Source: Synergistaceae bacterium (GTDB lineage: Bacteria; Synergistota; Synergistia; Synergistales; Synergistaceae). From it: a stretch of DNA of 64,000 nucleotides. Shown here piece by piece: positions 1 to 25,054 of this stretch (position 1 is its first letter; every line of letters begins with the position of its first letter). Location of the stretch: assembly GCA_030523725.1 (NCBI GenBank), contig JAUNHV010000007.1, positions 1 through 64,000 on the forward strand, read 5' to 3'. The position numbers and the translations under genes were made by a program. The notes under the pieces were generated by a model. The model did no database searches, had not been told where the DNA came from, and saw only the letters and a program-made list of their open reading frames with translations.

Positions 1-28
1 TAAGTTCAGAAAGGAGAGAAATTTCAAG

Positions 29-3000
29 ATGGGAAATTTCAAAAGTTTCAAAAAGGTAGTTTTATTGGTTATGCTTGTGGTGTTTACCGCAAGCTTTGGG
101 ACACCGGTGGTGACACCGGCTTGGGCGGCTGGTCTGATAAAGATAGACCAGATATTGAATATGGGGACAGGTGGAGGCACAGGCGGAGGAGCGTCAAAGG
201 TTACTCGTAGTGGTACCACAATTACCAGTGTTACAACATCAGATAATGCGAAGACGATATACTTTGGTAAATATTGGCAAAGTACCACAAGCATATGGGG
301 AGCCAAAGAAGCAATCAAGTGGAGAGTGTTATCAGTGAATGCACCGTTAGATACGAGTGGCACAAATAACAAAGGAGTGCTTCTTCTTTCGGATCAGGGA
401 TTATACGCAGACGCGTTTAACGGTTCTAAAGTTAAAGCAAACAAAAATGTATGGGGCAAGGATGCTACAAGTACAGACACTGCAATATCATCAGAAATTC
501 GCACGACACTAAATGATAGAACCATGGACGGTGTTAAAGGTAAGGGGTTTGCCGCAGATGCATTTGACCAAAAAGAATTTGACGCGATAGCAAGCACAAA
601 GCATACGGCAGGTGGGAACCAATCAGGTAATGACAATGTATCGACAGACAAGCTATTTTTGTTGAGTGGCTCCGACCAAAATGGTGTTACAGTAGGCGAG
701 ATATATAACACAGCCTATGGCTTTGCAGATGATGATAGTAGAATATCGACAGCGACAACTTTTGCAACGAAAGTGGCGATGTATGGTAACAACAGCAAGG
801 TAAATGTACAAAGTGCAGATAGTGAGTCTGCATGGTTGCGCTCGCCTGGCTCTAATGGCGATTTTGCGTTCTCTGTCAACGCTCGCGGCAAAGTCAATGG
901 GAACGGTGTGACCGGCGACATTAATGCCGTTCGCCCGGCTTTCAATCTGAATCCAGAATCGGTTTTGTTTTTAACGGCCGCAAATGCTACAGGCAAAGGC
1001 GCCTCAAAAATTGGTATGTTCAGCATTGATAATACCTACACTGGCTCTGACGGTTGGAAGGTGACACTGAAGGATACAGACATAACAGCACCTACGGTAA
1101 GCTCTGTAACACAGACAAAAGAGGGTGACACGGTTGATTCCCTTGCTGGAAAAACCAATACACTAGATCTAACAAACGGACTGACTGTAAGCTATAAGGA
1201 CGATTTGAGTGTAGCTTATGATGCCGCCGCTTCTTTTACGACAGGTGCAAATTACCTGTCAGCTGTGGTGAAGGATTCCGCTGGAAATTATGTCAACTAT
1301 GCAAAAATTGCAGAGAAATCTTCTTCTAGCCCCGCAAAGGTTGGCTTAGGCACCTTGGCCGATGGTACATACACGATGTACGTCTTTGCAGAAAAGACAA
1401 ATGGAGACAAGGAAACGGATTATGCTTCAGATTTTAGTAACGCAGAAGGTTACACCATTGGAAATGGTGACGTAACAATCTTTGCGGACAAGCTCAGTGC
1501 TACACATAAGGGCAAAGAGCTCACTGCCAATCTCGACAAGGGTTTCAACCTTTCCTTTGATGCAGATACATACAATACAAGCGTTGCCCTTGCCAACAAT
1601 GCGACAGGCAAGATAACGGCTGGCGGAACTGGCACAGAAATAAAGAACGTTTCTGTGGGAAGTGGTGCAAGTCTTGCTTTCAAGAATAAATTTACCGTGT
1701 CAGACCTCTCTGTAGGAAACGACGGACTACTACAGATTACAAGCGATGTGAATGCCAGCACTGCGGACACGATTACAGTTAAAAATGCCTTAACGCTTGG
1801 AGACTCTTCAATGCTAAAAATTCAGCTTTCAGATCCATATTTTGCGACTGCAAAAAAGAGCATTCCAGTGAATAACCTTGCGCTACTTACTGCCACAAAT
1901 GGTCTTAGCATAAAAGCAGAGAACATAACAGGTGTTGCGACAGTTGGAACATATGGCATCTTCACTCCTATATTTAGTGTAGTGGATAATAACATTAACT
2001 TAACTGGCTTTAACTTTAAGGGAGACGAACCGGGGGGAAAAGGACACATTTATAAGTTAGCCTATCTTGGAAAATATAAATCTGGCGATCCTGTTCCTTA
2101 TGGTCATGTTGTGAAGTATGACAAAGATGCAAGGACAGATATTTTATACAAGGTAAAAAATGATGACGGCAAACTATGGGGACGTGCGGGGCGCGATTCA
2201 ACAATATCTACGCGTGAGGAATTGAAGTATGATTGGGATGATGAGTCTAAGACATTAAAACAACATACTGAAGTTGGTGATGGAGATATCACTGTTATAT
2301 ATGATAATAAAACGAAAGTTTCTGGAGCGAGAACCTCTGAAGGTGTTAATCCAAATGTTACTGCATATGTTAAATCTTATGTACCTGAGCCAACTGCGCC
2401 AGGGGACGACGGCCCTCTTGAGGGTGGTGCCATTTACACCAATAATTGCAATAATACTGATATTAAAGCCGATTTTGTAGCTAATTATCTTAATGCAAAT
2501 GCAAAAAGTATTCGTTGGGGTACAGGTGGTGGTGCTATCTACAATTCTAGCAAAAATTCCAAAATAGGTGATATAACTGGAGACTTTATAGGTAATTTTG
2601 TCTTAAACCAAAACCCCACCAACGCTGATGCACGAGGAGGTGCGATTTATAACCTTCAGTCAGCTTCTATTGGCAATATTTACGGTGACTTCATAGGTAA
2701 TTTTGTAAAAGGTGCCCAATGGGTATATGGTGGTGCAATTCAAAATAGTTACCGTACTACCGGTTTTGATGTAGATAAGGTTAGCACTATAGGTAACATA
2801 GTAGGAGATTTTGTAGGTAACTATGCCGAGGCAACGTACGGTGCTGCAGCTGGTGGTGCTATTAATAACGAATGTTATTTTGACGAGCCAATGTCTGGTG
2901 CCAAAATTGGAGATATTACCGGTAATTTCATAGGTAATTATGTAAAAACCAATGCAAATACACATGAGGAGTTTTCCTTAGTGGGTGGTGGAGCAATCTC

Positions 3001-6000
3001 TAATGTAGGTTCTGTAATGGCAGAAGAAAAGACTTCAATTGGTAACATAACGGGAGATTTTATAGGTAACTATGTTGTGTTCTCAACAGATAGATTAGAG
3101 GGAGTAATAGTAGCTGGTGGTGCAATTCGTAATACGAATGCGACGATTGGCGATATTTCTGGTAACTTTATAGGCAACTATGTCCAAGTCCAAGACGGCA
3201 AAGAACGCACAAAAGCATACGGTGGTGCGATTTATAACGAACACGGTAAAATAAAGTTCCTCACGAAAGACACGGATATTAAGTTTGCAGATAACACCGC
3301 GAAAGTTGGTGGTGCAATCTATAACGACGGAAATGGAACTGTAAAGTTATACGCTGCTTCTGGTAAGTCCATCACCTTTGAAGGCAAGGCAGACGATGCG
3401 TTGGTAGACTCCGTCCACAACGAAGGCAGGCTTTACATAAATGGCGACGGGACTGATGCACCTACCACCGGCACGGTCAACTTTGCCACAATTACAAATG
3501 ACTACGACATAGGCATGATGCTCATCAACGGTGGAACGGTTAACATAAAGGGCGACGTTGCACAAAAATCTTTAACTGTTGCAGAGAATGCTTCTCTTAA
3601 TTTCACTGGCAATACAGAATTAGGAATAGGCTCAATAGTCAACAGAGGAAGTGTTAACATTGCGAAGGGCGGAGCAGTAAAGGGCAAATTCAATTTTGAT
3701 GCAAGGTCAACTAACACCGAAATTACAAACAATGGCATATGGTATGCTGTTAACAGTTTGTCTGGTGCAAATGTCACCTTGTCAGACGGTGGCACAATAG
3801 ACGTTGCCTATTCTGCCATAACGAAGGACGCACAGGGCAAATTTGCTCCTACATATAATAAGAAGACATCTTATGATACTGCAACAGTGTCAAACCTCGT
3901 GATAAACGATGGTGAGTTAAAAATTCAGAGCAATTTGGGTGCTGAAACGCCAACGGCGGATAGACTTATTGCAACCGCCTTGACGCTTGGAGAAAATGTC
4001 AAATTAAAAATTCAAGTTATGTATGATCCCCTCTTTGCAACCGCAAAGGGAGAGATTACCGGCAAATCTGCTGTGGTGCTCAGCACAGAGAGCGAAGGTA
4101 TAGTTAAAGATCTCTTGAGCAAGATAACAACAGAGACGGTGATAGGAACCCATGGTAAGTTCACCCCAATATTTGGAATTAACGCCGAGATACCTAATAG
4201 CATCCTATTAACTGGCTTCTCTTTTACTGGTGATGGTCCAATGCCGCCAGAATCTTCTCAGACGGTAACAGAGTTGAGTAAAGAGGAGGATAAAGCTTGG
4301 AAATCAATCAACGTTACAGGCGATAAAATAAAGGCCGAAACACCTGCTGCAGTTTGGCTTGTTGACAAGGTTGACTCGGAAACGGGAAAAGGCGAGTTTA
4401 AGTTGGATAGCGCGGGTGCTACAATTTCTGCAACGTCCACAGATAAAAAAAGCGGCGGTCCTTGGCTCTATGGTATATATATGAAGGAAAGTACTGCAGG
4501 CCACACCATTACCCTTAGTGGCGGTCCTGCTACAATTTCAGCTATCAATAACAAAGCTGACGATGGTGCCGGTGCAACAGGATTTCACGCAGAGGGGCTT
4601 ACTGTCAAAACTGGTGGAAAAGACCTTACGATTGACACTGTTACGTCAAAAGGTAGCGGCGGTGACCCTGCTGCTGCTTCCTATGGTGTTAACCTTACTG
4701 GTGCAACGCTAGACCTAACAAACGGTAGCACCTATGGCACATTAACAATAGGTGGAGCAGATGCTGGCAAGGGAATAATATCCACTGCTAGTGTAGCCTA
4801 TGGACTTGACGTTGAGGGTGGTGCGACAGTTAACAGTGGAAAAATAATTATCAAAAATGTGTCGACGCCAACGTCTGCCATGGCGTTTGGTGCGTATTTG
4901 GAAGGTGAGGACACCAGTGTAAAGACGAATGGTAATGATATAACTATTATCGGAATTCAGTCTAGCGGTAAGTATGGTAGTGCTCGTGGTATAGCACAAT
5001 ACAATGGAGCAGAATTAAATCTTGAAGGTAAAGATAATGTAGGTAAGCTCACTATAGATGGTGTAAAATCGATAGGTGCAGAAGGCAATGCCTTTGGGTA
5101 TAATGTCACGGCTATGACTGTTGCGCATAAAGGTTCCGTAACTATACGCAATATAGAAGCAAAAGAGGCTTTTGCAATTTTTGTGGATGGATGGCAGGGT
5201 GATCTCGCAAGTGAGCTTACCCTTGGCTATGATGGAGAAAAACTCAGCGGTGGCACATATCAAATAGAAGGTGACGTGGCGGCTGCAAAAGACAATGGGT
5301 CAGCTACTGCAAAGCTAACAATGGCGTTGCAGAATAAGGATTCCTACCTCTATGGTAACCTCTTGTCAACCTATGTACCCTGGGAACTAGTTGTAAAGGG
5401 CAATATTACGGTAGATTTGTTAGACGGTGGAAAGTGGTATCCTGCCTTTAACGCAAGCCACGAGTCAAAAGACAATAATGCGACTGTTACCCTGTCCAAG
5501 GGAACAGGAAAGGACGCAAGCGAAGGTGTGATAGACCTCGCCTATTCCGGCTTTAAGCCAAAAGCTGTAACGCCAGGCGATTTGGATCCGTATGAGCGTG
5601 ATAAAGCTGGTGCCTTAATACCGGAATATAATGAGAAGACAGATTTTGCAACGGCAACGATATCAAACCTTGTAATCAAGAATGGTCTCTTGAAAATTCA
5701 GAGTGCATTAGCAAAATCTGATGCAGCTGAAGATAGCAAGACGGACAGTATTACTGTTACAGAATTGATATTTACTGGTGAGCTAAAGATTCAGGTCATG
5801 TATGACCCGTTCTTTGCGAAGGCAACAGGCAAAGGCAAATTTGATGGAAAACAAATTGCAGTGCTAACTGCCACTAAATTTTCAACAGGTACGGTAACAG
5901 GCGTTACCACAGAGTATGATGGTAAAAAATTTACCCCAACATTTGCTTTTGATGATACTAAAGGCATCATTTACATAGCTGGTTTTGAGTTTGATGCTGG

Positions 6001-9000
6001 TGGTCCAGTGCCGCCAGATCCGCAAAAATCTACTAAGACGGTAACAGAGCTGAGCAAAGAAGGGGATAAACCTTGGAAAGAAATCACCGTTACAGGTGCG
6101 GATATAACAAATGAAACACCTGCTGCAGTTTGGCTTGAAGACAAGGTTGACCCGAAAGCGGGGATTGGCGAGTTTAAGTTGGATGAGAAAGGCGCCACGA
6201 TTTCTGCAACGTCCACAGCCGATAGCAAAAATCTTTGGCTTTTTGGTATATATATGAAGGAAAAAACTAAAGGGCATACCATTACCCTTAGTGGTGGTCC
6301 TGCTACAATTTCTGTGGTTAACACACTAAACGAAAAAGGTGCTGGAGCAACAGGGCTTAACGCAGAGTGGCTCACTGTTAAAACTGGTGGTAAGGACCTT
6401 ACAGTTGAGACAGTTCAGGCTAAGGCAGATTGTGCATACGGAATTGTGCTGGATGGCGCTACGCTAGACCTTACTAACGGTACTACCTATGGAAAGCTGA
6501 CAATAGGCTCAAATGACACAGGTAAGGGTATAAGCTCTGCTAGTGAAAAATACGTCACAGGTCTTAACCTTATAAGTGATGCGACAATTAACAGTGGTGC
6601 GATAGATATTAAAAATGTGTCGTCAGAGAGTAGTGGCACAGTGTGTGGTTTGAGTTTGTCTGACAATGCCAGTGCTAAGACGAATGACAAGGATGTAACA
6701 ATTACAGAAATTAAGTCTTCTGGTATGGCTGCAGGGCTATCACTGGTCAAAGGTTCCGAATTAGACCTCGGAAGTGGCAAACTTACAATAGATGGTGTAA
6801 AGTCGACAGGTTCGGGTGGATTTAATCTTGCCGTTGGGTATCTAGTGGATCAGGCAACTGTGGCGCATAAGGGATCCGTGTCTATACGCAATGTAGAAGG
6901 TCCAGGAGCTTTTGCAATTGCTACGATTACGTCTGTGGATGGGAATCCTGCCAAGCTTACCCTTGGATATAATGATGAGAAGGGAACAACTCTTAGTGGT
7001 GGCACATATCAAATAGAAGGTGATGTGGTGGCTGCCAAGGTGCTTGAAACCGCTACTTCAGAGCTAAAAATGGCATTGCAAAACGATGCTTCTTACCTCT
7101 ATGGTAACTTCTTGACAAAATTCGATCTTATGGGCTTAAAGGAACAAGGCAATATTACGTTAGATTTGTTAGACGGTGGAAAATGGTATCCAGTTTCTGT
7201 CGCAGACCCCAAGTTTGAAAATGATGCGACTGTTACCCTGTCCAAGGGAACAGGAAAGGACGCAAGCGAAGGTGTGATAGACCTCGCCTATTCCGGCTTT
7301 AAGCCAAAAGCTATTGTAAAGCCAGGCGATTTGGATCCGTATGAGCGTGATGAAAATGGTGCCTTAATACCGGTATATGATAATGACAAGACAGCTTTTA
7401 GAACGGTACAGGTATCAAACCTCGTAATCAAGAATGGTCTCTTGAAGATTCAAAGTAACGTGAAAACCTCTGGTAGCAAGGCGGATGCACTTGTTGCAAG
7501 TGCTTTAACGATTGGCGATGGTGCAGAATTAAAAATTCAGGTCATGTATGACCCAGCCTTCAAGGATGCTACAGATGATATTACTGGCGAGCATATTGCA
7601 GTGCTAACTGCCACTAAAGTAGTCGCTGGTACCTTGTCAAAAGATATGGTAACAGGCGTTGCCACGATGTACGGTGATAAAAAATTCACCCCAACGTTTG
7701 ATTTTGATGCTACCCACATTTACTTAACCGGTTTCACCTATGGTGGTGAACCACCAGTGCCAACGGGAGTAAAAACGACAAGCGAAGCACTTGGTTCAAA
7801 GGGTGCAGAGACGGATACCACATTTTTTGAGATGACGGCAGATGAAAAGCTCACAGAGGCATGGGGTACGTTTATAGCACGTTCAGGTGGAAAGACCACA
7901 CTTACCCTAAAGGGTGCGGGAACAAGCAAAAATACGGTAGATGGCAATGGTAACAATGGTCTTACCGTTGATGGCAAAGATCACGCCGTAACAGTTGAAG
8001 CCATTACGGTAACGAACATGGTGAATCCATTTACTGTTACTAAGGGAAGTCTTACCTTGGATGGTGTTACCATTGGAACTGGTGTTAGCGGAGATATTAC
8101 AAATGATGACATATTAACCTTGAAAGGGGTAACGACTCTTACCACATCACTAAACCTGACAGGAAGTGGAGAAACAACACTGGAAGGAACCTTGGCTGGC
8201 AGTGGTGCTCTTACAATCAAAGGCGGAAAGCTTGCACTAGACGCATCACAATACCTTGCAGATCGTCTGGTTCTAGACGAAGGAGGAACACTTAAATTTA
8301 CCGGTGGCACACTTTCAGGAGATATAAATAACAATGGCACAGTAACAGCCGAAAGCGGAGTTGTGGTGAATAGTACAATCACAAACGCAAAGACAACCTC
8401 AAAGACAGAGATCAAAAAAGGTGCATCCTTTGGAGCAAATGGCAAGATAGACGGAGGTGTAGCAAGTATCGGTGAAGATGTAAAGTTTAGCAGCAATAAT
8501 GTTGCAAACCTTACTGAGCTTTCTGCCACAAATTCTATTTATAACTTCTCTGCTACACTTGGAACAGGCACAGCAGCTTCCCCGTTCATAAAGGCAGACG
8601 ATATACTGACTGTCGGTGGTAAAGCCACTGGAACAATAAAGCTTGGCACAATTAAGCTTAGTGGCACATCATCGGACGAATGGGCAGCTGATACTTCACA
8701 GGTAATGCAATACCTTAATGCAGAAGATGGAAGCAGCCTTGAGATTGTCGGTAGCAAAATGCAGACAAGCACAGGCTATAAATATACCTTTAGTCAGGCA
8801 ATGAAAGATAATAAAGCATGGGTTGGGTATATGACTGTTCTTAAGCAAGGAGGAGCAATATCATATACCTTGAAAGAGATAGTGAATGCAAATCCAACAG
8901 AAGCCGGAGAAATAGACAGTTACATTGTTGAAGGGCTTTATGATGTTACGAAAGACCTTGGAGCGCTTAACAATCAGAAGAGAAATGGCGAATTTACGAT

Positions 9001-12000
9001 ATTCGGCAACACTGAAGGAGATGCTCCAGTGCTCTACGGTAATGGCAATAAGGGTATAACAGTAGCTGACACAGAGCAAGGCGGAAAGGCAGGAGATATC
9101 CTTAACATCCAAGACCTCACCATGAAGGACTTTGACGTTGCTCTGACAAACAAGGCAGATGGAGTTGTCAACCTCAGCAATGTGGACTTCACGAGCACCT
9201 CTGAGAATGCGGACATCATCAATGATGGAACCTTGAATCTTAATGGAGAAGTGAGTTTTGGTGCTGGAGTGGATGGCAAGGGTACAATGAATGTGGCATC
9301 TGACCAGACCTTTGCGGATGGTGTAACCATAGTACAAGCTAAGGTCAATAACGAGGCAGACCTTGAGAATAATGCACTGATAAGAGTGACAGATGTAGTC
9401 AACAAAAAGAAACTTACCACAAGCATGGAGAATCTTTTTGCTAAGACAATAAGCAATAGTGGTACGTTTGATATCACTGGTGGCACACTTTCACAAACCG
9501 TAGCGAACAAGGATGGAATTACAAAGCTTGAAAAAGGTGCATCCTTTGGAACAAGTGGCAAGGTTGACAATGGCAAGGCAGAACTTAAAGAAGATGTTAA
9601 TTTTAGCGCTAAGAACGTTACAAATTTAACAGGCCTTGATACCGACAATGCAACATATGACTTCTCTGCGACATTGGGAGAAGGTACAGCAGCTTCCCCG
9701 TTCATAAAGGCAGACGATATACTGACTGTCGGTGGTAAAGCCACTGGAACAATAAAGTTTGGCAGTATTTCACTGAAGGGTGTAGCATCTGAAGATTGGG
9801 CAAAAGACACCTCAAAAGAAATGCAGTACATGACAGCGGCAGCTGGAAGCAACTTAATAATTTCCAATAGCAAATGCTACCAAGTGGTTTCTGGTTCAGG
9901 CATAATCGATTATACATTCAGCCAGGCGATGAATGGAGAAGATGCCAGAATAGGCTACATGAATGTAGAAAAGAAGAGTTCAGCGAAACAAATACAAGAC
10001 TTGGTGTCGGACCCAGAATCCAGTGGTTTCTCAGTTGAAGAAGGAAGTGACATAGATGTAGAAGGAGGTACCCTTGGTGTGCTCGATACCTCTGGGAAAG
10101 AAGACCCAACCTATACGATATCAGGCAAAAATGCAGAAGATACATCTCTTGTTGGAGATGGAGATAGTGAAAAGACTGGAATAACCGTGGCAAACGATGG
10201 AGACACCCTCATTGTAAAAGACATAACGATGGATAATTTTGGTGTTGATATAGAAAACCAAGAAGGTGGAACAGTCAAACTAGAAGACATAGCATTCACG
10301 CGGACGCAAGGAGAAGCAGATATCGTCAACGAGGGAACAGTAAATCTTAACGGAACGGCCACGTTTGACAAAGGTATAAAGGATGATGACTTCAAGGGAA
10401 CAGTGGTGGTTGGAGCAGGTGCTACAGTTGCAGGACAGGGCACCAATGCTACTTCAATCAACACAGGTAAGCTTGAGGGACAAGGAGACCTTACAGTTAA
10501 GGGTGTAACCATAAACCTTGGTGAAACGATAGATGGCAAGGTAGCAGGTAACTTTACATTGGAAGGAGCAGTGCTTGCAGGAGCCGGCAAGGAAAACACG
10601 GCAGAGACGACAAGCTCACTTACCGTTGCTAAAAATACGAGCTCAGGCTTCAAAAACCTGTCCTTCACAGTGGTTGATACTGCAAATATTAATGGCAAAC
10701 TCACGCTTGATGCAGCAGAGCTCAATGGTGGCGATATAAACGTAAACGCTTCAGGTAGACTTGAGGCTATGAACGGTAGCACGATATCAGGTAATTTGAC
10801 GACGTTTGGTACATTTAGCGTGTATGGAAATACAACCATAGCAGGAAGCTTTACACCAAAAGGAGCTCTCATCTTCCATCTTGATGGACACAAGGCAGAC
10901 GATATCTTCCTAACCACACAAACTCCAGTTAACCTAAAGAACGCAGCGGTTGGGCTTATTCAGAATGACCCATACTACAAGCTTTCACAGGGCGAGAAGA
11001 TGACCCTTGTGACTAATATTGTTAAGGATAGCTACAGAGGACCATCTGCAATGAGCGCAAGGAGTTCAGGTGGTGTTGCGACGTACACCTATAGCGTAGG
11101 AGAAGCAGCTCTTCCCAGCAAGTCAGTAGCTGCAAGAGTAAATTCAGCGCAGTCTGTGAAGGCTGAGAACAATCACGATGCGAAGTACGCGGTAGAGGTA
11201 GCGAACGGGTTGCCGAATGCTCAGGGAATGAGCGAGGCTAAAATTGTTGACGCCACTGTGACAACAAATGACCAAGGAGGAGTTGTCCTTGGTGAAGAAA
11301 ATGCAAATGACGTTTACGCCCTTGTGCTTGGTTACCTTGGTCATGAAGCTACCAAAGAGACAAAATCCTTCAGTCAGGCAAAGCTTGCAGTAACAGCTGC
11401 AGTAAACAGCGGAAGCGACCTTATCGCGACATCTGTGATGGAAAACGCAACACCAAGTGGCAAGAAATGGGAAACATTCGCTGCCCTCGGAGGAAGCCGC
11501 AATCGCTATGACGAGATAGGCAGTAACGTAGACCTCAACATGTTCAACGTAGCAGCAGGACTTTCTGGCAAGGTGTTTGACAATCTTACACTTGGAGTGT
11601 TCGTGGAAGGTGGAGATGGCCGCTACAACACAGAAGATAGATTTGCAGCCGAAAGCGTTTTGGCAAAGGGAGATGTAAACTACTTCGGTGGAGGTTTGTT
11701 TGCAAAATATGAAGGAAAGAAAACAGACCTTGGTCAGTTCCATGGAGAAGCGAGCATGAGAGCAGGACATATAAACAGCAAATACAACAGTGCCAACTTC
11801 AACCCAGGAACCTTCACGAGCTTTGACCTTAGCGGTTCATACCTCGGAGCGCACGCAGGATTTGGTTACAAGTGGAATGTTAGTGGCAAGCGCACCATAG
11901 ACACCTATGTTAAGTATCTATGGAGCAGACAGGGCAACTCAAGCAACGTAATGGACGGTGAGACAATAGACCTTGAAGCCATAAACAGCCACAGACTCCG

Positions 12001-12280
12001 TGCAGGATTCCGCCTCAATGGACAGTCAAACGACAAGGGCTTTAACCTATTCGGAGGGCTTGCCTATGAATATGAGTTTGACGGAAAGGCAAAGGGTTCA
12101 GTTGGAACAAGCGCGATGCCAATGTCAGACTTTAAAGGCGGAAGCGGCTTGGCAGAATTCGGAGTTAAATTCGATAGACTGAACAGTGCCTGGAAGGGAG
12201 AACTTTCTCTTCAGGGTTACACAGGCAGACGTGACAGCATAGGAGCTAATCTTAGTATTTGGTATATGTTCGGTAAATAA
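29..12280 (+). CDS. Giant autotransporter adhesin, 4083 aa
   Basis: Type V secreted surface protein. Residues 1-34 form a signal peptide (basic start, hydrophobic core, cleavage near AWAA). Residues about 77-325 resemble the DUF6273 domain found in surface proteins (YFGKYWQ, WRVLSV, WLRSPG, VRPAFNLNPESV). Residues about 799-1100 carry nine GGAI-type repeats; residues about 1411-2580 hold two copies of a roughly 590-residue block; residues about 2585-3500 hold three related modules. The last 270 or so residues (from about 3811, KKWETFAALGG) look like an autotransporter beta-barrel of alternating amphipathic strands, ending in IWYMFGK. A GGAG-containing ribosome site precedes the ATG. The passenger is Gly/Thr/Asn-rich, as expected for a beta-helix. 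Adhesion or aggregation is inferred from architecture only; no catalytic motif was seen. Confidence 0.9.
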   Translation: MGNFKSFKKVVLLVMLVVFTASFGTPVVTPAWAAGLIKIDQILNMGTGGGTGGGASKVTRSGTTITSVTTSDNAKTIYFGKYWQSTTSIWGAKEAIKWRVLSVNAPLDTSGTNNKGVLLLSDQGLYADAFNGSKVKANKNVWGKDATSTDTAISSEIRTTLNDRTMDGVKGKGFAADAFDQKEFDAIASTKHTAGGNQSGNDNVSTDKLFLLSGSDQNGVTVGEIYNTAYGFADDDSRISTATTFATKVAMYGNNSKVNVQSADSESAWLRSPGSNGDFAFSVNARGKVNGNGVTGDINAVRPAFNLNPESVLFLTAANATGKGASKIGMFSIDNTYTGSDGWKVTLKDTDITAPTVSSVTQTKEGDTVDSLAGKTNTLDLTNGLTVSYKDDLSVAYDAAASFTTGANYLSAVVKDSAGNYVNYAKIAEKSSSSPAKVGLGTLADGTYTMYVFAEKTNGDKETDYASDFSNAEGYTIGNGDVTIFADKLSATHKGKELTANLDKGFNLSFDADTYNTSVALANNATGKITAGGTGTEIKNVSVGSGASLAFKNKFTVSDLSVGNDGLLQITSDVNASTADTITVKNALTLGDSSMLKIQLSDPYFATAKKSIPVNNLALLTATNGLSIKAENITGVATVGTYGIFTPIFSVVDNNINLTGFNFKGDEPGGKGHIYKLAYLGKYKSGDPVPYGHVVKYDKDARTDILYKVKNDDGKLWGRAGRDSTISTREELKYDWDDESKTLKQHTEVGDGDITVIYDNKTKVSGARTSEGVNPNVTAYVKSYVPEPTAPGDDGPLEGGAIYTNNCNNTDIKADFVANYLNANAKSIRWGTGGGAIYNSSKNSKIGDITGDFIGNFVLNQNPTNADARGGAIYNLQSASIGNIYGDFIGNFVKGAQWVYGGAIQNSYRTTGFDVDKVSTIGNIVGDFVGNYAEATYGAAAGGAINNECYFDEPMSGAKIGDITGNFIGNYVKTNANTHEEFSLVGGGAISNVGSVMAEEKTSIGNITGDFIGNYVVFSTDRLEGVIVAGGAIRNTNATIGDISGNFIGNYVQVQDGKERTKAYGGAIYNEHGKIKFLTKDTDIKFADNTAKVGGAIYNDGNGTVKLYAASGKSITFEGKADDALVDSVHNEGRLYINGDGTDAPTTGTVNFATITNDYDIGMMLINGGTVNIKGDVAQKSLTVAENASLNFTGNTELGIGSIVNRGSVNIAKGGAVKGKFNFDARSTNTEITNNGIWYAVNSLSGANVTLSDGGTIDVAYSAITKDAQGKFAPTYNKKTSYDTATVSNLVINDGELKIQSNLGAETPTADRLIATALTLGENVKLKIQVMYDPLFATAKGEITGKSAVVLSTESEGIVKDLLSKITTETVIGTHGKFTPIFGINAEIPNSILLTGFSFTGDGPMPPESSQTVTELSKEEDKAWKSINVTGDKIKAETPAAVWLVDKVDSETGKGEFKLDSAGATISATSTDKKSGGPWLYGIYMKESTAGHTITLSGGPATISAINNKADDGAGATGFHAEGLTVKTGGKDLTIDTVTSKGSGGDPAAASYGVNLTGATLDLTNGSTYGTLTIGGADAGKGIISTASVAYGLDVEGGATVNSGKIIIKNVSTPTSAMAFGAYLEGEDTSVKTNGNDITIIGIQSSGKYGSARGIAQYNGAELNLEGKDNVGKLTIDGVKSIGAEGNAFGYNVTAMTVAHKGSVTIRNIEAKEAFAIFVDGWQGDLASELTLGYDGEKLSGGTYQIEGDVAAAKDNGSATAKLTMALQNKDSYLYGNLLSTYVPWELVVKGNITVDLLDGGKWYPAFNASHESKDNNATVTLSKGTGKDASEGVIDLAYSGFKPKAVTPGDLDPYERDKAGALIPEYNEKTDFATATISNLVIKNGLLKIQSALAKSDAAEDSKTDSITVTELIFTGELKIQVMYDPFFAKATGKGKFDGKQIAVLTATKFSTGTVTGVTTEYDGKKFTPTFAFDDTKGIIYIAGFEFDAGGPVPPDPQKSTKTVTELSKEGDKPWKEITVTGADITNETPAAVWLEDKVDPKAGIGEFKLDEKGATISATSTADSKNLWLFGIYMKEKTKGHTITLSGGPATISVVNTLNEKGAGATGLNAEWLTVKTGGKDLTVETVQAKADCAYGIVLDGATLDLTNGTTYGKLTIGSNDTGKGISSASEKYVTGLNLISDATINSGAIDIKNVSSESSGTVCGLSLSDNASAKTNDKDVTITEIKSSGMAAGLSLVKGSELDLGSGKLTIDGVKSTGSGGFNLAVGYLVDQATVAHKGSVSIRNVEGPGAFAIATITSVDGNPAKLTLGYNDEKGTTLSGGTYQIEGDVVAAKVLETATSELKMALQNDASYLYGNFLTKFDLMGLKEQGNITLDLLDGGKWYPVSVADPKFENDATVTLSKGTGKDASEGVIDLAYSGFKPKAIVKPGDLDPYERDENGALIPVYDNDKTAFRTVQVSNLVIKNGLLKIQSNVKTSGSKADALVASALTIGDGAELKIQVMYDPAFKDATDDITGEHIAVLTATKVVAGTLSKDMVTGVATMYGDKKFTPTFDFDATHIYLTGFTYGGEPPVPTGVKTTSEALGSKGAETDTTFFEMTADEKLTEAWGTFIARSGGKTTLTLKGAGTSKNTVDGNGNNGLTVDGKDHAVTVEAITVTNMVNPFTVTKGSLTLDGVTIGTGVSGDITNDDILTLKGVTTLTTSLNLTGSGETTLEGTLAGSGALTIKGGKLALDASQYLADRLVLDEGGTLKFTGGTLSGDINNNGTVTAESGVVVNSTITNAKTTSKTEIKKGASFGANGKIDGGVASIGEDVKFSSNNVANLTELSATNSIYNFSATLGTGTAASPFIKADDILTVGGKATGTIKLGTIKLSGTSSDEWAADTSQVMQYLNAEDGSSLEIVGSKMQTSTGYKYTFSQAMKDNKAWVGYMTVLKQGGAISYTLKEIVNANPTEAGEIDSYIVEGLYDVTKDLGALNNQKRNGEFTIFGNTEGDAPVLYGNGNKGITVADTEQGGKAGDILNIQDLTMKDFDVALTNKADGVVNLSNVDFTSTSENADIINDGTLNLNGEVSFGAGVDGKGTMNVASDQTFADGVTIVQAKVNNEADLENNALIRVTDVVNKKKLTTSMENLFAKTISNSGTFDITGGTLSQTVANKDGITKLEKGASFGTSGKVDNGKAELKEDVNFSAKNVTNLTGLDTDNATYDFSATLGEGTAASPFIKADDILTVGGKATGTIKFGSISLKGVASEDWAKDTSKEMQYMTAAAGSNLIISNSKCYQVVSGSGIIDYTFSQAMNGEDARIGYMNVEKKSSAKQIQDLVSDPESSGFSVEEGSDIDVEGGTLGVLDTSGKEDPTYTISGKNAEDTSLVGDGDSEKTGITVANDGDTLIVKDITMDNFGVDIENQEGGTVKLEDIAFTRTQGEADIVNEGTVNLNGTATFDKGIKDDDFKGTVVVGAGATVAGQGTNATSINTGKLEGQGDLTVKGVTINLGETIDGKVAGNFTLEGAVLAGAGKENTAETTSSLTVAKNTSSGFKNLSFTVVDTANINGKLTLDAAELNGGDINVNASGRLEAMNGSTISGNLTTFGTFSVYGNTTIAGSFTPKGALIFHLDGHKADDIFLTTQTPVNLKNAAVGLIQNDPYYKLSQGEKMTLVTNIVKDSYRGPSAMSARSSGGVATYTYSVGEAALPSKSVAARVNSAQSVKAENNHDAKYAVEVANGLPNAQGMSEAKIVDATVTTNDQGGVVLGEENANDVYALVLGYLGHEATKETKSFSQAKLAVTAAVNSGSDLIATSVMENATPSGKKWETFAALGGSRNRYDEIGSNVDLNMFNVAAGLSGKVFDNLTLGVFVEGGDGRYNTEDRFAAESVLAKGDVNYFGGGLFAKYEGKKTDLGQFHGEASMRAGHINSKYNSANFNPGTFTSFDLSGSYLGAHAGFGYKWNVSGKRTIDTYVKYLWSRQGNSSNVMDGETIDLEAINSHRLRAGFRLNGQSNDKGFNLFGGLAYEYEFDGKAKGSVGTSAMPMSDFKGGSGLAEFGVKFDRLNSAWKGELSLQGYTGRRDSIGANLSIWYMFGK
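2423..3345 (+). repeat. Nine GGAI / IGDITGDFIGN repeats in the autotransporter
   Basis: Nine in-frame units begin with GGAI (mostly GGAIYN), and most continue with I-G-[DN]-I-[TSV]-G-[DN]-F-[IV]-G-N-[YF]. Unit length varies from about 25 to 45 residues because of variable linkers. The GGAI plus FxxN pattern resembles the repeats of chlamydial polymorphic outer-membrane proteins, which form beta-helix rungs. Homology to Pmp proteins is an inference from motif likeness. Confidence 0.8.
4262..7770 (+). repeat. Two tandem 1.75-kb repeats in the autotransporter
   Basis: Block one (4262 to about 6037) and block two (6038 to about 7770) encode parallel proteins: TVTELSKE, ETPAAVWL, GHTITLSGGPATIS, TYQIEGDV, YERD, LKIQVMYDP. 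DNA identity is uneven but reaches 89 identical bases at 5478-5566 versus 7224-7312. Further single copies of the LKIQ...DP...FTPIF sub-module lie at about 1815 and 4005, so the domain was copied more than twice. Confidence 0.85.
7780..10420 (+). repeat. Three related 1.1-kb modules in the autotransporter
   Basis: Modules begin near 7780, 8890 and 10010. Modules one and two share ASFG, NFSATLG, ADDILTVGGKATGTIK and YTFSQAM. A 72-base stretch is identical at 8570-8641 and 9686-9757, a spacing of 1116 bases. The third module keeps only the first half (GITVA, TVNLNG). The exact match points to fairly recent duplication or gene conversion. Confidence 0.8.
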
Positions 12281-21776: not shown

Positions 21777-22064
21777 ATGGCAAACGTTAATATTGCACTC
21801 GGAATGATTGAAACAAAGGGACTTGTTGCAGCAATCGAAGCATCTGATGCTATGGTCAAGGCAGCAAATGTTACACTTATCGGCAAGGTTCATGTCGGTG
21901 GTGGACTTGTTACAACAATGGTAAGAGGTGATGTTGGTGCCGTTAAGGCAGCAACAGACGCAGGAGCCGCAGCAGCAGAAAGAGTTGGAGAGCTAATCTC
22001 TGTCCACGTCATTCCACGTCCGCACGAAGAAGTTGAATTCATCCTTCCAAAGCTAGAGAAGTAA
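21777..22064 (+). CDS. eutM: Major BMC-H shell protein EutM
   Basis: Canonical single-domain hexameric shell protein, 95 aa: [16 protein letters not shown], pore loop [34 protein letters not shown]. This is the facet-forming tile of the compartment. A strong ATAGGAGG site lies upstream. It is closely related to the tailed protein at 19848-20240 but lacks the extension. No eutS-type bent hexamer is present in the window. Confidence 0.95.
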
Positions 22065-22100
22065 TCGTTAGTGATTACTTTCGGTTAGGAGGTGAATGCT

Positions 22101-22904
22101 TTGAAGGTTATCACAGAGGCTTTTTTGCGTGACGAACTCAGAATGGAGACGCCAGAAGTTTATATCGTGCCAGATGGCAAGATATTATCCCCTGCGGCTC
22201 GTGAATATCTGATGCAACGCAAAATAAAGATAAAGCTTCCAAAACAGTTGCGATATAATCCAGAACCGTCAAAGCCAGAGCCAAATGAAGTGCAGCAAGT
22301 AGGTAAATTGTTAGAAGAAGAGGCAAAACCTGTTGACTCGTCGCATAAGTATGTGGACAATGAAACGAATGCTTTTTATGACGAAAAACCTGAGGATATG
22401 ACTGCACTTTATGGCAACTCACTCGTATTTAAGGATAATCCACGCATAGAGTTTCGTGGCAAATTGGACACCTTGCAGTCCATGGTAGTTCTTTACCAGT
22501 CCTTTATAGCGGAGGATGTAGCACACGAAAAGTTGCTTGAGCATCTAGGCTCAATAGTACACGCATTAGGAGAAATGATGAGATGCGATGTGCTAAATGA
22601 ACCATATAATATGCCGGATGTACTCGGTCTAACTCAGCATGAATTACACGACAGAAGCCATAATCCGATGAAATATTTTAAAGTGAAGCAAATGGTTTTA
22701 CCCCACTATAAATATGGAAAGGCTTATGCAATGCTTAATCGTTTGAGAACTGCGACAAGAGAGACAGAGGTAATCGCAACGAGAGCTTTCCGTGTGAAAA
22801 ATATATCTGGAAGAACAGATATAATTAAGGGCTTAAACAGATTGTCCAGTGCATTTCACGTTATGATGTGTATGTTGTTGGCTGGAGAATACGACAAAAA
22901 ATAA
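22101..22904 (+). CDS. eutT: Corrinoid adenosyltransferase EutT
   Basis: ATP:cob(I)alamin adenosyltransferase of the EutT family, 267 aa. It is recognised by VITEAFLRDEL at the start, RIEFRGKLDTLQS in the middle, and the C-terminal RTATRETEVIATRAF and DIIKGLNRLSSAFHVMM segments. The CCxxC metal motif of Salmonella EutT is absent, as in the metal-independent EutT class described from Listeria and other Firmicutes. I chose TTG at 22101 because TTAGGAGGTG (22085-22094) fits it; the in-frame GTG at 22092 lies inside that ribosome site. It supplies AdoCbl for EutBC, together with the PduS-type reductase downstream. Confidence 0.92.
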   Translation: MKVITEAFLRDELRMETPEVYIVPDGKILSPAAREYLMQRKIKIKLPKQLRYNPEPSKPEPNEVQQVGKLLEEEAKPVDSSHKYVDNETNAFYDEKPEDMTALYGNSLVFKDNPRIEFRGKLDTLQSMVVLYQSFIAEDVAHEKLLEHLGSIVHALGEMMRCDVLNEPYNMPDVLGLTQHELHDRSHNPMKYFKVKQMVLPHYKYGKAYAMLNRLRTATRETEVIATRAFRVKNISGRTDIIKGLNRLSSAFHVMMCMLLAGEYDKK

Positions 22905-23560: not shown

Positions 23561-24403
23561 ATGCTTGATTTAGAACGTATAGATGCATATATGGAGCGTG
23601 TTACAGACTCGGAGACAGAGACTTTTGTTCCCGAGTCACGCACGCTAAAGTGTGGGCTTGATCTTGGAACTGCTTATATAGTCATTGTGGTTTTGGACGA
23701 ACAAAACAATCCTGTTGCCTGTGAAAAACAGGCAGCGGAAGTTTTGCGCGATGGTGTTGTTGTTGATTATGCTGGGGCATCAAGAATTGTCCGTGAACTG
23801 AAAAAAAAGCTAGAAGAGCGTCTTGGCTGCGAGTTACAGAATTGTGCAATCGCAATGCCTGCTGGAACAGAATCCAGTGTACGTACCCATAAGTACGTTG
23901 CAGAGGGTGCTGGCTTTGAAGTGACGGGGGTGTTAGATGAACCCAGTGCAGCAAATGCAGTTTACCAAATAGAAAATGGAGTTATTGTTGATATTGGTGG
24001 TGGCACAACAGGTCTTGCTGTTTTGAAAAAAGGGAAGGTTACTGATATATATGATGAGCCAACAGGTGGCACACATTTGTCACTTGTTTTGGCTGGCAAT
24101 TATCACATTCCCTTTGCTGAAGCAGAAAAAATTAAGCAAGACTATTCTCGCCACAAAGAAATTCTTCCTGTTGTTCGAGCTGTTATTGAGAAAATGGCAA
24201 CCATTGTTTCTCGTAACATAAAAAAGGAAGAAATTGAAGAAATTTATCTTTGTGGGGGCACCTGTTGCCTAACGGGGATTGAGCAGATTTTTGAAAAGGT
24301 TACTGGCATAAAAACCATAAAACCAAAAAATCCTTTCCTTGTTACACCGGCAGGAATTGCTGCAAGTTGCGAACCATTTAAGATGGAAACAAGAGACTAC
24401 TAA
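23561..24403 (+). CDS. eutJ: Hsp70/actin-like chaperone EutJ
   Basis: EutJ-family ATPase, 280 aa, with ATP-binding motifs CGLDLGTAYIV near residue 27, VDIGGGTTGLAVL near 142 and a late CGGTCCLTG segment. The family is found only in eut loci and is thought to act as a chaperone, but its client is not established. The gene starts nine bases after pduL with a poor ribosome site, so translation may depend on coupling. Confidence 0.92.
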   Translation: MLDLERIDAYMERVTDSETETFVPESRTLKCGLDLGTAYIVIVVLDEQNNPVACEKQAAEVLRDGVVVDYAGASRIVRELKKKLEERLGCELQNCAIAMPAGTESSVRTHKYVAEGAGFEVTGVLDEPSAANAVYQIENGVIVDIGGGTTGLAVLKKGKVTDIYDEPTGGTHLSLVLAGNYHIPFAEAEKIKQDYSRHKEILPVVRAVIEKMATIVSRNIKKEEIEEIYLCGGTCCLTGIEQIFEKVTGIKTIKPKNPFLVTPAGIAASCEPFKMETRDY

Positions 24404-24451
24404 AAAATTGCACGAAAAGACACATGTTTTGTGTCAAAGGAGGCGAAAGTT

Positions 24452-24757
24452 TTGGATTACGAAGCATTATTGCAAGAAGTTGTTCGCCGTGTTATGCAAA
24501 AATTAGCAGCCCTTGAGGCAACAAAAAATTGCACATCTCAAGGAACGTGCTCTTGCAAAAGCGAAATAACTTTTGAAGAACCGTGTTGTAAAACAAAAGA
24601 AAAAACAATCGCCAAGCGTGTTGTTACAGAGAAAGACCTCATCGCTGTAAGAGGTGAAGGTGTAACCTGTGTCCTCCTTGGCGAAAGAACAATAGTAACT
24701 GATGTGGCTCGTGATTATGCCACAAAGTTTTCTATTACACTAAAAAGACCTTCATAG
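24452..24757 (+). CDS. Unnamed small microcompartment-associated protein
   Basis: Protein of 101 aa that I cannot name. Residues 1-16 form an amphipathic helix (DYEALLQEVVRRVMQKL) like an encapsulation peptide. Residues about 24-47 hold five Cys (C-x5-C-x-C, then CC), a possible metal site. The last 40 residues (GVTCVLLGERTIVTDVARDY) resemble the N-terminal segment of EutT (VYIVPDGKILSPAAREY). TTG at 24452 is chosen because AAAGGAGG (24436-24443) is then well spaced; the GTG at 24431 would put that site inside the gene. It lies between eutJ and eutN on the same strand. Confidence 0.75.
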   Translation: MDYEALLQEVVRRVMQKLAALEATKNCTSQGTCSCKSEITFEEPCCKTKEKTIAKRVVTEKDLIAVRGEGVTCVLLGERTIVTDVARDYATKFSITLKRPS

Positions 24758-24769
24758 GTTGGCTTAACC

Positions 24770-25054
24770 ATGAGAATAGGTAAAGTAATTGGCAACATTT
24801 GGGCGACCAGAAAGGAAGCTCGTCTTGGTGGATTTAAGCTTATGCTTGTTCAAACAATTAACATCGCTGACGGTAGCCTAGTTGGAGAACCGATTGTTGC
24901 CACAGACCTAATAGATGCTGGGGTTGGTGAAACAATTATCTATGTTGCAGGAAGCTCTGCTAGAACTGCAAGCGGGAATTCTAGCCTGCCAGTTGACGCA
25001 ACAATAATTGCAATAGTAGATAATTATGACGCTGACTTTGGTCTCCTAAAATAA
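24770..25054 (+). CDS. eutN: BMC-P vertex protein EutN
   Basis: Pentameric vertex protein of the EutN/CcmL family, 94 aa: MRIGKVIGNIWATRKEA, LVQTINIADG, VAATDLIDAG-like centre, and VDATIIAIVDNYD at the end. Such pentamers close the corners of the shell. Twelve bases separate it from the unnamed upstream gene, and the ribosome site is weak, in keeping with the low copy number of vertex proteins. Confidence 0.95.
   Translation: MRIGKVIGNIWATRKEARLGGFKLMLVQTINIADGSLVGEPIVATDLIDAGVGETIIYVAGSSARTASGNSSLPVDATIIAIVDNYDADFGLLK

Follow-up and report, generated by a model that had tools for sequence, protein, structure and literature searches.

A small protein encoded between eutJ and eutN in a Synergistaceae EUT operon is a candidate minimal shell-to-cargo linker

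The operon slot between eutJ and eutN in a Synergistaceae genome encodes a 101-residue protein, here called X, that is probably a minimal shell-to-cargo linker, or tether, of the EUT microcompartment (we put the probability at roughly 0.6). We favor this reading because X carries both of the parts that tie enzymes to the shell in Salmonella EutQ, a helix of the cargo type and a mini-domain of the shell-docking type. Throughout, the window is the whole 64,000-nucleotide stretch of contig JAUNHV010000007.1 that was analyzed.

X is a real open reading frame, with its TTG start backed by an ATG at the aligned residue in orthologues (in one of them, within two residues). The EUT operon runs eutA-B-C-L-BMC-eutE-M-T-D-J-X-N-pduS-BMC-T-H-Q (Table 1). 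The phylum genome set comprised 188 genomes. Orthologues with 34-51% identity are found in 10 related genomes, in the slot eutJ-X-eutN in each, and the short X proteins of these ten same-family relatives are 90-108 aa long. A first-pass annotation, made from the window alone, had placed X between eutJ and eutN, which is borne out in the window and in all ten relatives; its concern that X might be absent from other EUT loci is answered by the same genomes. A 6-bp hairpin (GACACA/TGTGTC, 24419-24435) lies directly 5' of the X ribosome-binding site; its folding is not significant (z -1.7), and an Rfam scan of 12-33 kb in the window gave no match. Upstream of the eut regulators, a 4092-aa open frame encoding a giant protein (2-12280, + strand) extends past the left end of the window.

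Table 1. Positions in the window of gene X, its parts and the operon genes discussed
Feature	Positions	Strand	Remarks
X (101-aa product)	24452..24757	+	TTG start; reading frame confirmed
RBS of X, GGAGG	24439..24443	+	sequence; TTG 8 nt downstream
X N-terminal amphipathic helix, residues 3-25	24458..24526	+	AF2 helix; hydrophobic moment; encapsulation-peptide type
X disordered Cys-rich linker, residues 27-48 (C27, C33, C35, C45, C46)	24530..24595	+	pLDDT about 45-60
X C-terminal mini-domain, residues 50-99, beta-alpha-beta-alpha-beta	24599..24748	+	pLDDT 94-97; hhalign; TIGR02536 C-terminus E 3e-6
eutM	21777..22064	+	proposed shell docking partner; K53/D57 kept
eutT	22092..22904	+	first ~50 residues are the same mini-domain as in X
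eutJ, upstream neighbor of X	23561..24403	+	NCBIfam EutJ E 3e-109
eutN, downstream neighbor of X	24770..25054	+	Pfam EutN_CcmL E 1.6e-28
eutQ, 147 aa	28228..28671	+	cupin plus one N-terminal helix, without mini-domain

An AF2 model of X built on a 25-sequence alignment (mean pLDDT 80) has a pTM of 0.49, a value in keeping with parts that a flexible linker connects. In this model X has a predicted amphipathic helix followed by a flexible linker, the cargo-side part of EutQ-type linkers, and residues 50-98 fold into a compact unit. The first 20 residues are modeled with pLDDT 82-86, and the hydrophobic moment of the first helix, 0.56, is the highest N-terminal value of the 17 operon proteins tested (permutation p 0.049). 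Both the modeled helix and this moment support the earlier description of the start as amphipathic and like an encapsulation peptide. The helix pattern LLxxVVxxVMxxL of X is like LIxxIVxxVL at the N-terminus of the window EutQ, a descriptive likeness, since it was derived from those two proteins themselves. Sequence searches of the PDB, run with X and with the profile of the module, found no real relative; designed TIM barrels that came up were artefacts of their repeats, each single stretch having an i-Evalue in the hundreds. A Foldseek search of the PDB gave no significant match to X (best RPB5, E 0.026).

The C-terminal mini-domain of X is homologous both to the N-terminus of EutT and to roughly residues 2-48 of E. 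coli EutQ. When the profile of this part was compared with 15 operon families using hhalign, the EutT N-terminus was the sole match (Prob 96.4, E 1.2e-9; the other 14 reached Prob 1.1 at most), upholding the resemblance to EutT noted in the first-pass annotation; these E-values refer to single comparisons and are better judged against the control families. The match to mini-domain-bearing EutQ of the enterobacterial/choline type was stronger than that to EutT (Prob 97.9, E 5.7e-13), against Prob 0.5 for EutQ of the window's type, which is without the module. Similarly, an hmmsearch with the X mini-domain HMM matched choline-type EutQ N-termini with E 8e-10 to 3e-7 and E. coli EutQ residues 2-48 with E 4e-4, the latter in a search confined to the eut region, at Z = 4300. 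X itself matched neither the cupin domain of EutQ-type proteins (PF06249) nor the adenosyltransferase domain (PF01923) that in EutT accompanies the mini-domain. In E. coli EutT a CCxxC motif lies after the module; the motif is missing in the window EutT. The first 99 residues of EutQ from Salmonella, E. coli and choline-type (GRM) loci share with X the mini-domain (H1/H2), a flexible linker and an amphipathic helix.

The same module links X to PduM, which has an N-terminal targeting helix and is reported to act, at low abundance, in core-shell assembly (PMC9132943, PMC12108088); it was described in 2025 as lacking known homologues beyond Pdu organelles (PMC12108088). The last 42 positions of the PduM model match the module in long relatives of X with E 2e-7 to 1e-6. 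X itself matches only the C-terminal part of TIGR04493 and PF15953, with 15.5 bits against a cut-off of 50 and 16.8 bits against one of 27. Because a search for the PduM family in Bacillota found no member over the cut-off, the link runs from the model to the long relatives, not through a direct alignment of PduM with X. PduM is thus like X in having an N-terminal targeting helix and homologous C-terminal residues (~42), and unlike X in having a further middle part. No description of the shared module was found in the literature searched, mostly open-access papers.

Stand-alone small mini-domain forms are present in several loci. Two helix-plus-mini-domain proteins of 74 and 78 aa, still smaller than X (L138:8412-8636 and L139:8170-8406), adjoin eutB/eutC-like genes in Intestinibacillus/Butyricicoccus, with the rest of the BMC operon not nearby. 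Other proteins, of 88-98 aa, begin with the mini-domain and continue with helices, like the EutQ N-terminus minus the cupin, and several lie beside a long X (L064:5629-5925, L067:5479-5766, L206:9902-10168, L207:7438-7728, L209:7653-7946, L214:3211-3498). The NCBIfam EutA model NF007991 matches E. coli EutQ residues 6-92 (L110:20303-21004) with E 1.6e-9; since these residues form the linker region at the EutQ N-terminus, the module seems to occur in some EutA proteins too.

Where X came from is indicated by the longer proteins that other genomes encode at this position. In other Synergistota and in many Clostridia these are proteins of 220-300 aa that match NCBIfam TIGR02536 over most of the length of the family and whose middle is a Flavoprotein domain (Pfam, best E 1.3e-9), with a UbiX/PPC decarboxylase fold (E 1e-4). 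Only the C-terminal part of X matches TIGR02536 (profile 161-203, E 3e-6), at 26.9 bits far under the curated cut-off of 152.6, which no Synergistota long form reaches either. In the alignment X equals the long slot protein minus this middle domain, which is absent from X. TIGR02536 proteins (eut_hyp, ~207-265 aa) have in common with X the slot between eutD or eutJ and eutN, the N-terminal amphipathic helix and the C-terminal module; they differ in the flavoprotein-like middle of ~130-150 aa. In a locus tree built from EutJ, PduS, EutN and EutD, short forms appear within a long-form background as a Coriobacteriia pair, as the window with an eight-genome group, and as L056/L057, joined to the long L058/L059 at 100%. 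The middle domain was lost two to four times, depending on whether regain is allowed, and both ends survive every time. Judged from these comparisons, X is a TIGR02536 homologue without the flavoprotein-like middle domain and descends from a protein of ~240 aa. The label "unnamed" given to X at first thus needs qualifying: it is a domain-loss variant of a known family, itself uncharacterized and unnamed. In the Coriobacteriia MAGs L088/L145 and L089 the short X is 83-86 aa, with a linker free of cysteine, and the locus (its neighborhood read in L145) looks diol-dehydratase-type, PDU-like, not EUT.

In the literature searched, mostly open-access papers, TIGR02536 is mentioned once, in a single paper. 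In C. difficile 630 the slot holds CD1921, a protein listed without a known function (PMC3483176); judged from position and length, it is probably a family member. "A flavoprotein" without established function is mentioned in some EUT2 and GRM loci (PMC4207490).

The EutQ proteins of the window's relatives, like that of the window, lack the mini-domain, and across loci a separate mini-domain protein and a module-bearing EutQ tend to replace one another. Counting all loci, a separate mini-domain ORF was present in 36/36 with an EutQ lacking the module vs 3/30 with a module-bearing EutQ (p 1.7e-15). Since many of these loci had been found through X, we set this count aside as biased and used samples in which loci were chosen by EutQ, blind to X. 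In Bacillota, a separate module protein accompanied EutQ without the module in 4/4 loci and EutQ with it in 2/26 (p 5e-4); with Synergistota added, the figures were 29/33 and 2/26 (p 2e-10). Three of the four Synergistota exceptions are without eutM, eutN, eutD, eutE and eutT, and in the fourth the contig ends within the locus. In the Synergistota loci L284, L285 and L286, eutA, B, C, L, H (and Q) are present but eutM, eutN, eutD, eutE and eutT are not, leaving EutL without other shell genes. Because the loci share ancestry, the p-values overstate independence, and part of the complementarity reflects a contrast among a few clades rather than many independent events. It is for this reason that we hold the linker explanation at about 0.6.

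How such a linker might work is suggested by Salmonella EutQ, whose residues 1-99 join shell and cargo: H1/H2 (9-41) lie on the shell side and H3/H4 (62-99) bind cargo peptides, and linking needs all parts, the flexible region included (PMC12487888). The EutQ N-terminus pulls down EutM via EutM K53 and D57 (PMC4827028), positions that we found kept as K and D in 88/92 scored EutM-family sequences. By analogy, X would bind both shell and cargo. On the cargo side, its N-terminal helix would pack against the encapsulation-type helices of EutC, EutE or EutQ and in this way attach to the enzyme core. On the shell side, the probable docking partner of its mini-domain would be EutM/EutL, as judged from homology with Salmonella EutQ H1/H2, and the flexible linker would bridge the two. 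Because the window EutQ has no mini-domain, X would act in trans as the 99 N-terminal residues of Salmonella EutQ act in cis. Cargo is likewise proposed to be tied to shell by short linear parts and a flexible linker in the case of CcmN, CsoS2 and PduB(1-37), a likeness of role for which no sequence relation is claimed. Besides the few clades behind the complementarity and the insignificant Foldseek result, two points count against a linker. The order of the parts is reversed, helix, linker and mini-domain in X vs mini-domain, linker, helices and cupin in EutQ. In addition EutT, an enzyme, has the same N-terminal module, which may therefore be a general docking part or bind a partner other than the shell.

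This last point leads to a reading close to that of the first-pass annotation, in which the module docks or dimerizes X with EutT and X serves cobalamin handling, not the shell. The homology of the module to the EutT N-terminus and the presence of eutT nearby in most loci would fit such a partnership. Against this, the module also occurs on EutQ, on PduM-type proteins and alone; it is present at L073, L076, L104 and L143, where no EutT-type ATR was found (some of these loci have another ATR or may be incomplete); and the complementarity tracks EutQ, not EutT, which is found in both kinds of locus. We consider an EutT partnership unlikely. Less likely again is that X is an adaptor whose module places at the shell a diffusible partner, such as a flavoprotein or EutJ, and not bulk cargo. 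In the long forms a flavoprotein-type domain does lie between the two ends shared with X, and X directly follows eutJ in all Synergistaceae short-form loci, but the flavoprotein domain is dispensable; we hold this adaptor role to be quite improbable.

The cysteines of X raise the possibility of a metal- or redox-binding lumen protein, whose linker cysteines would hold a metal or Fe-S cluster or form disulphides. Five lie in the 34-aa linker (six in the whole protein), with a chance of about 2e-4 at the operon's 1.8% cysteine, and the linkers of short forms as a set contain 8.5%, vs 1.8% in operon proteins; those of long X (5.2%) and EutQ (3.1%) lie somewhat above this level. In mini-domain-bearing EutQ (L140, L141, L142 and other loci) the linker value of 3.1% compares with 1.5% elsewhere in the protein, and positions are unfixed. 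The cysteine cluster noticed at first is thus present in X beyond chance, but it is not a family feature: short-form linkers have 0-5 cysteines with no conserved positions or spacing, none in L088/L089 (Coriobacteriia) and one in L056/L057, and a search of X for a cysteine motif of known cluster-binding type found none. Conservation of the cysteines in orthologues, on which the idea of a metal or corrinoid role had been staked beforehand, therefore failed. With the positions not conserved, the cysteines absent from the Coriobacteriia ortholog linkers, and the module at least as strong in EutQ and also present in PduM-type proteins, that role is unsupported. We know of no corrinoid role for PduM-type proteins. 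The sequences do not support a fixed metal site in the X linker, and we hold a metal or redox function to be rather unlikely, although the cysteines may have a looser role, for example in thiol chemistry or linker stickiness. Least probable of all, and in our view very improbable, is that X is a degenerate, functionless remnant of a TIGR02536 protein. Its missing middle domain, its score far below the family cut-off and, in one near genome pair, 3 synonymous vs 5 non-synonymous codon changes would agree with decay. However, another near pair has 8 synonymous vs 2 non-synonymous changes, the frame is intact in 11 genomes, the 17 invariant columns all fall in the two ends (0 in the variable linker), and both ends were retained through the parallel losses.

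Returning to X as a linker, its wider meaning concerns how EUT microcompartments assemble. Enterococcus and Listeria EutQ are without the first three helices, which are essential for shell-cargo joining, and the study that found this concluded that assembly there must differ (PMC12487888, 2025). The X family is a candidate for the part missing where EutQ lacks the shell-binding region, the question left by that study, and as a candidate linker homologous to the shell-binding part of EutQ it makes the assembly question directly testable. We give an even chance to a broader proposal, that catabolic microcompartments use the ~45-residue mini-domain as a general module for docking to the shell, one that has been shuffled between EutQ, EutT, PduM, TIGR02536 proteins, some EutA and tiny stand-alone linkers, and that the TIGR02536 proteins, in the window in their smallest form, are the missing assembly linker where the EutQ of EUT loci lacks the module. 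The module ties PduM to EutQ, EutT and the TIGR02536 family. X adds to that uncharacterized family a short variant with a testable role, and may offer organelle engineers a natural tether of ~100 residues to try.
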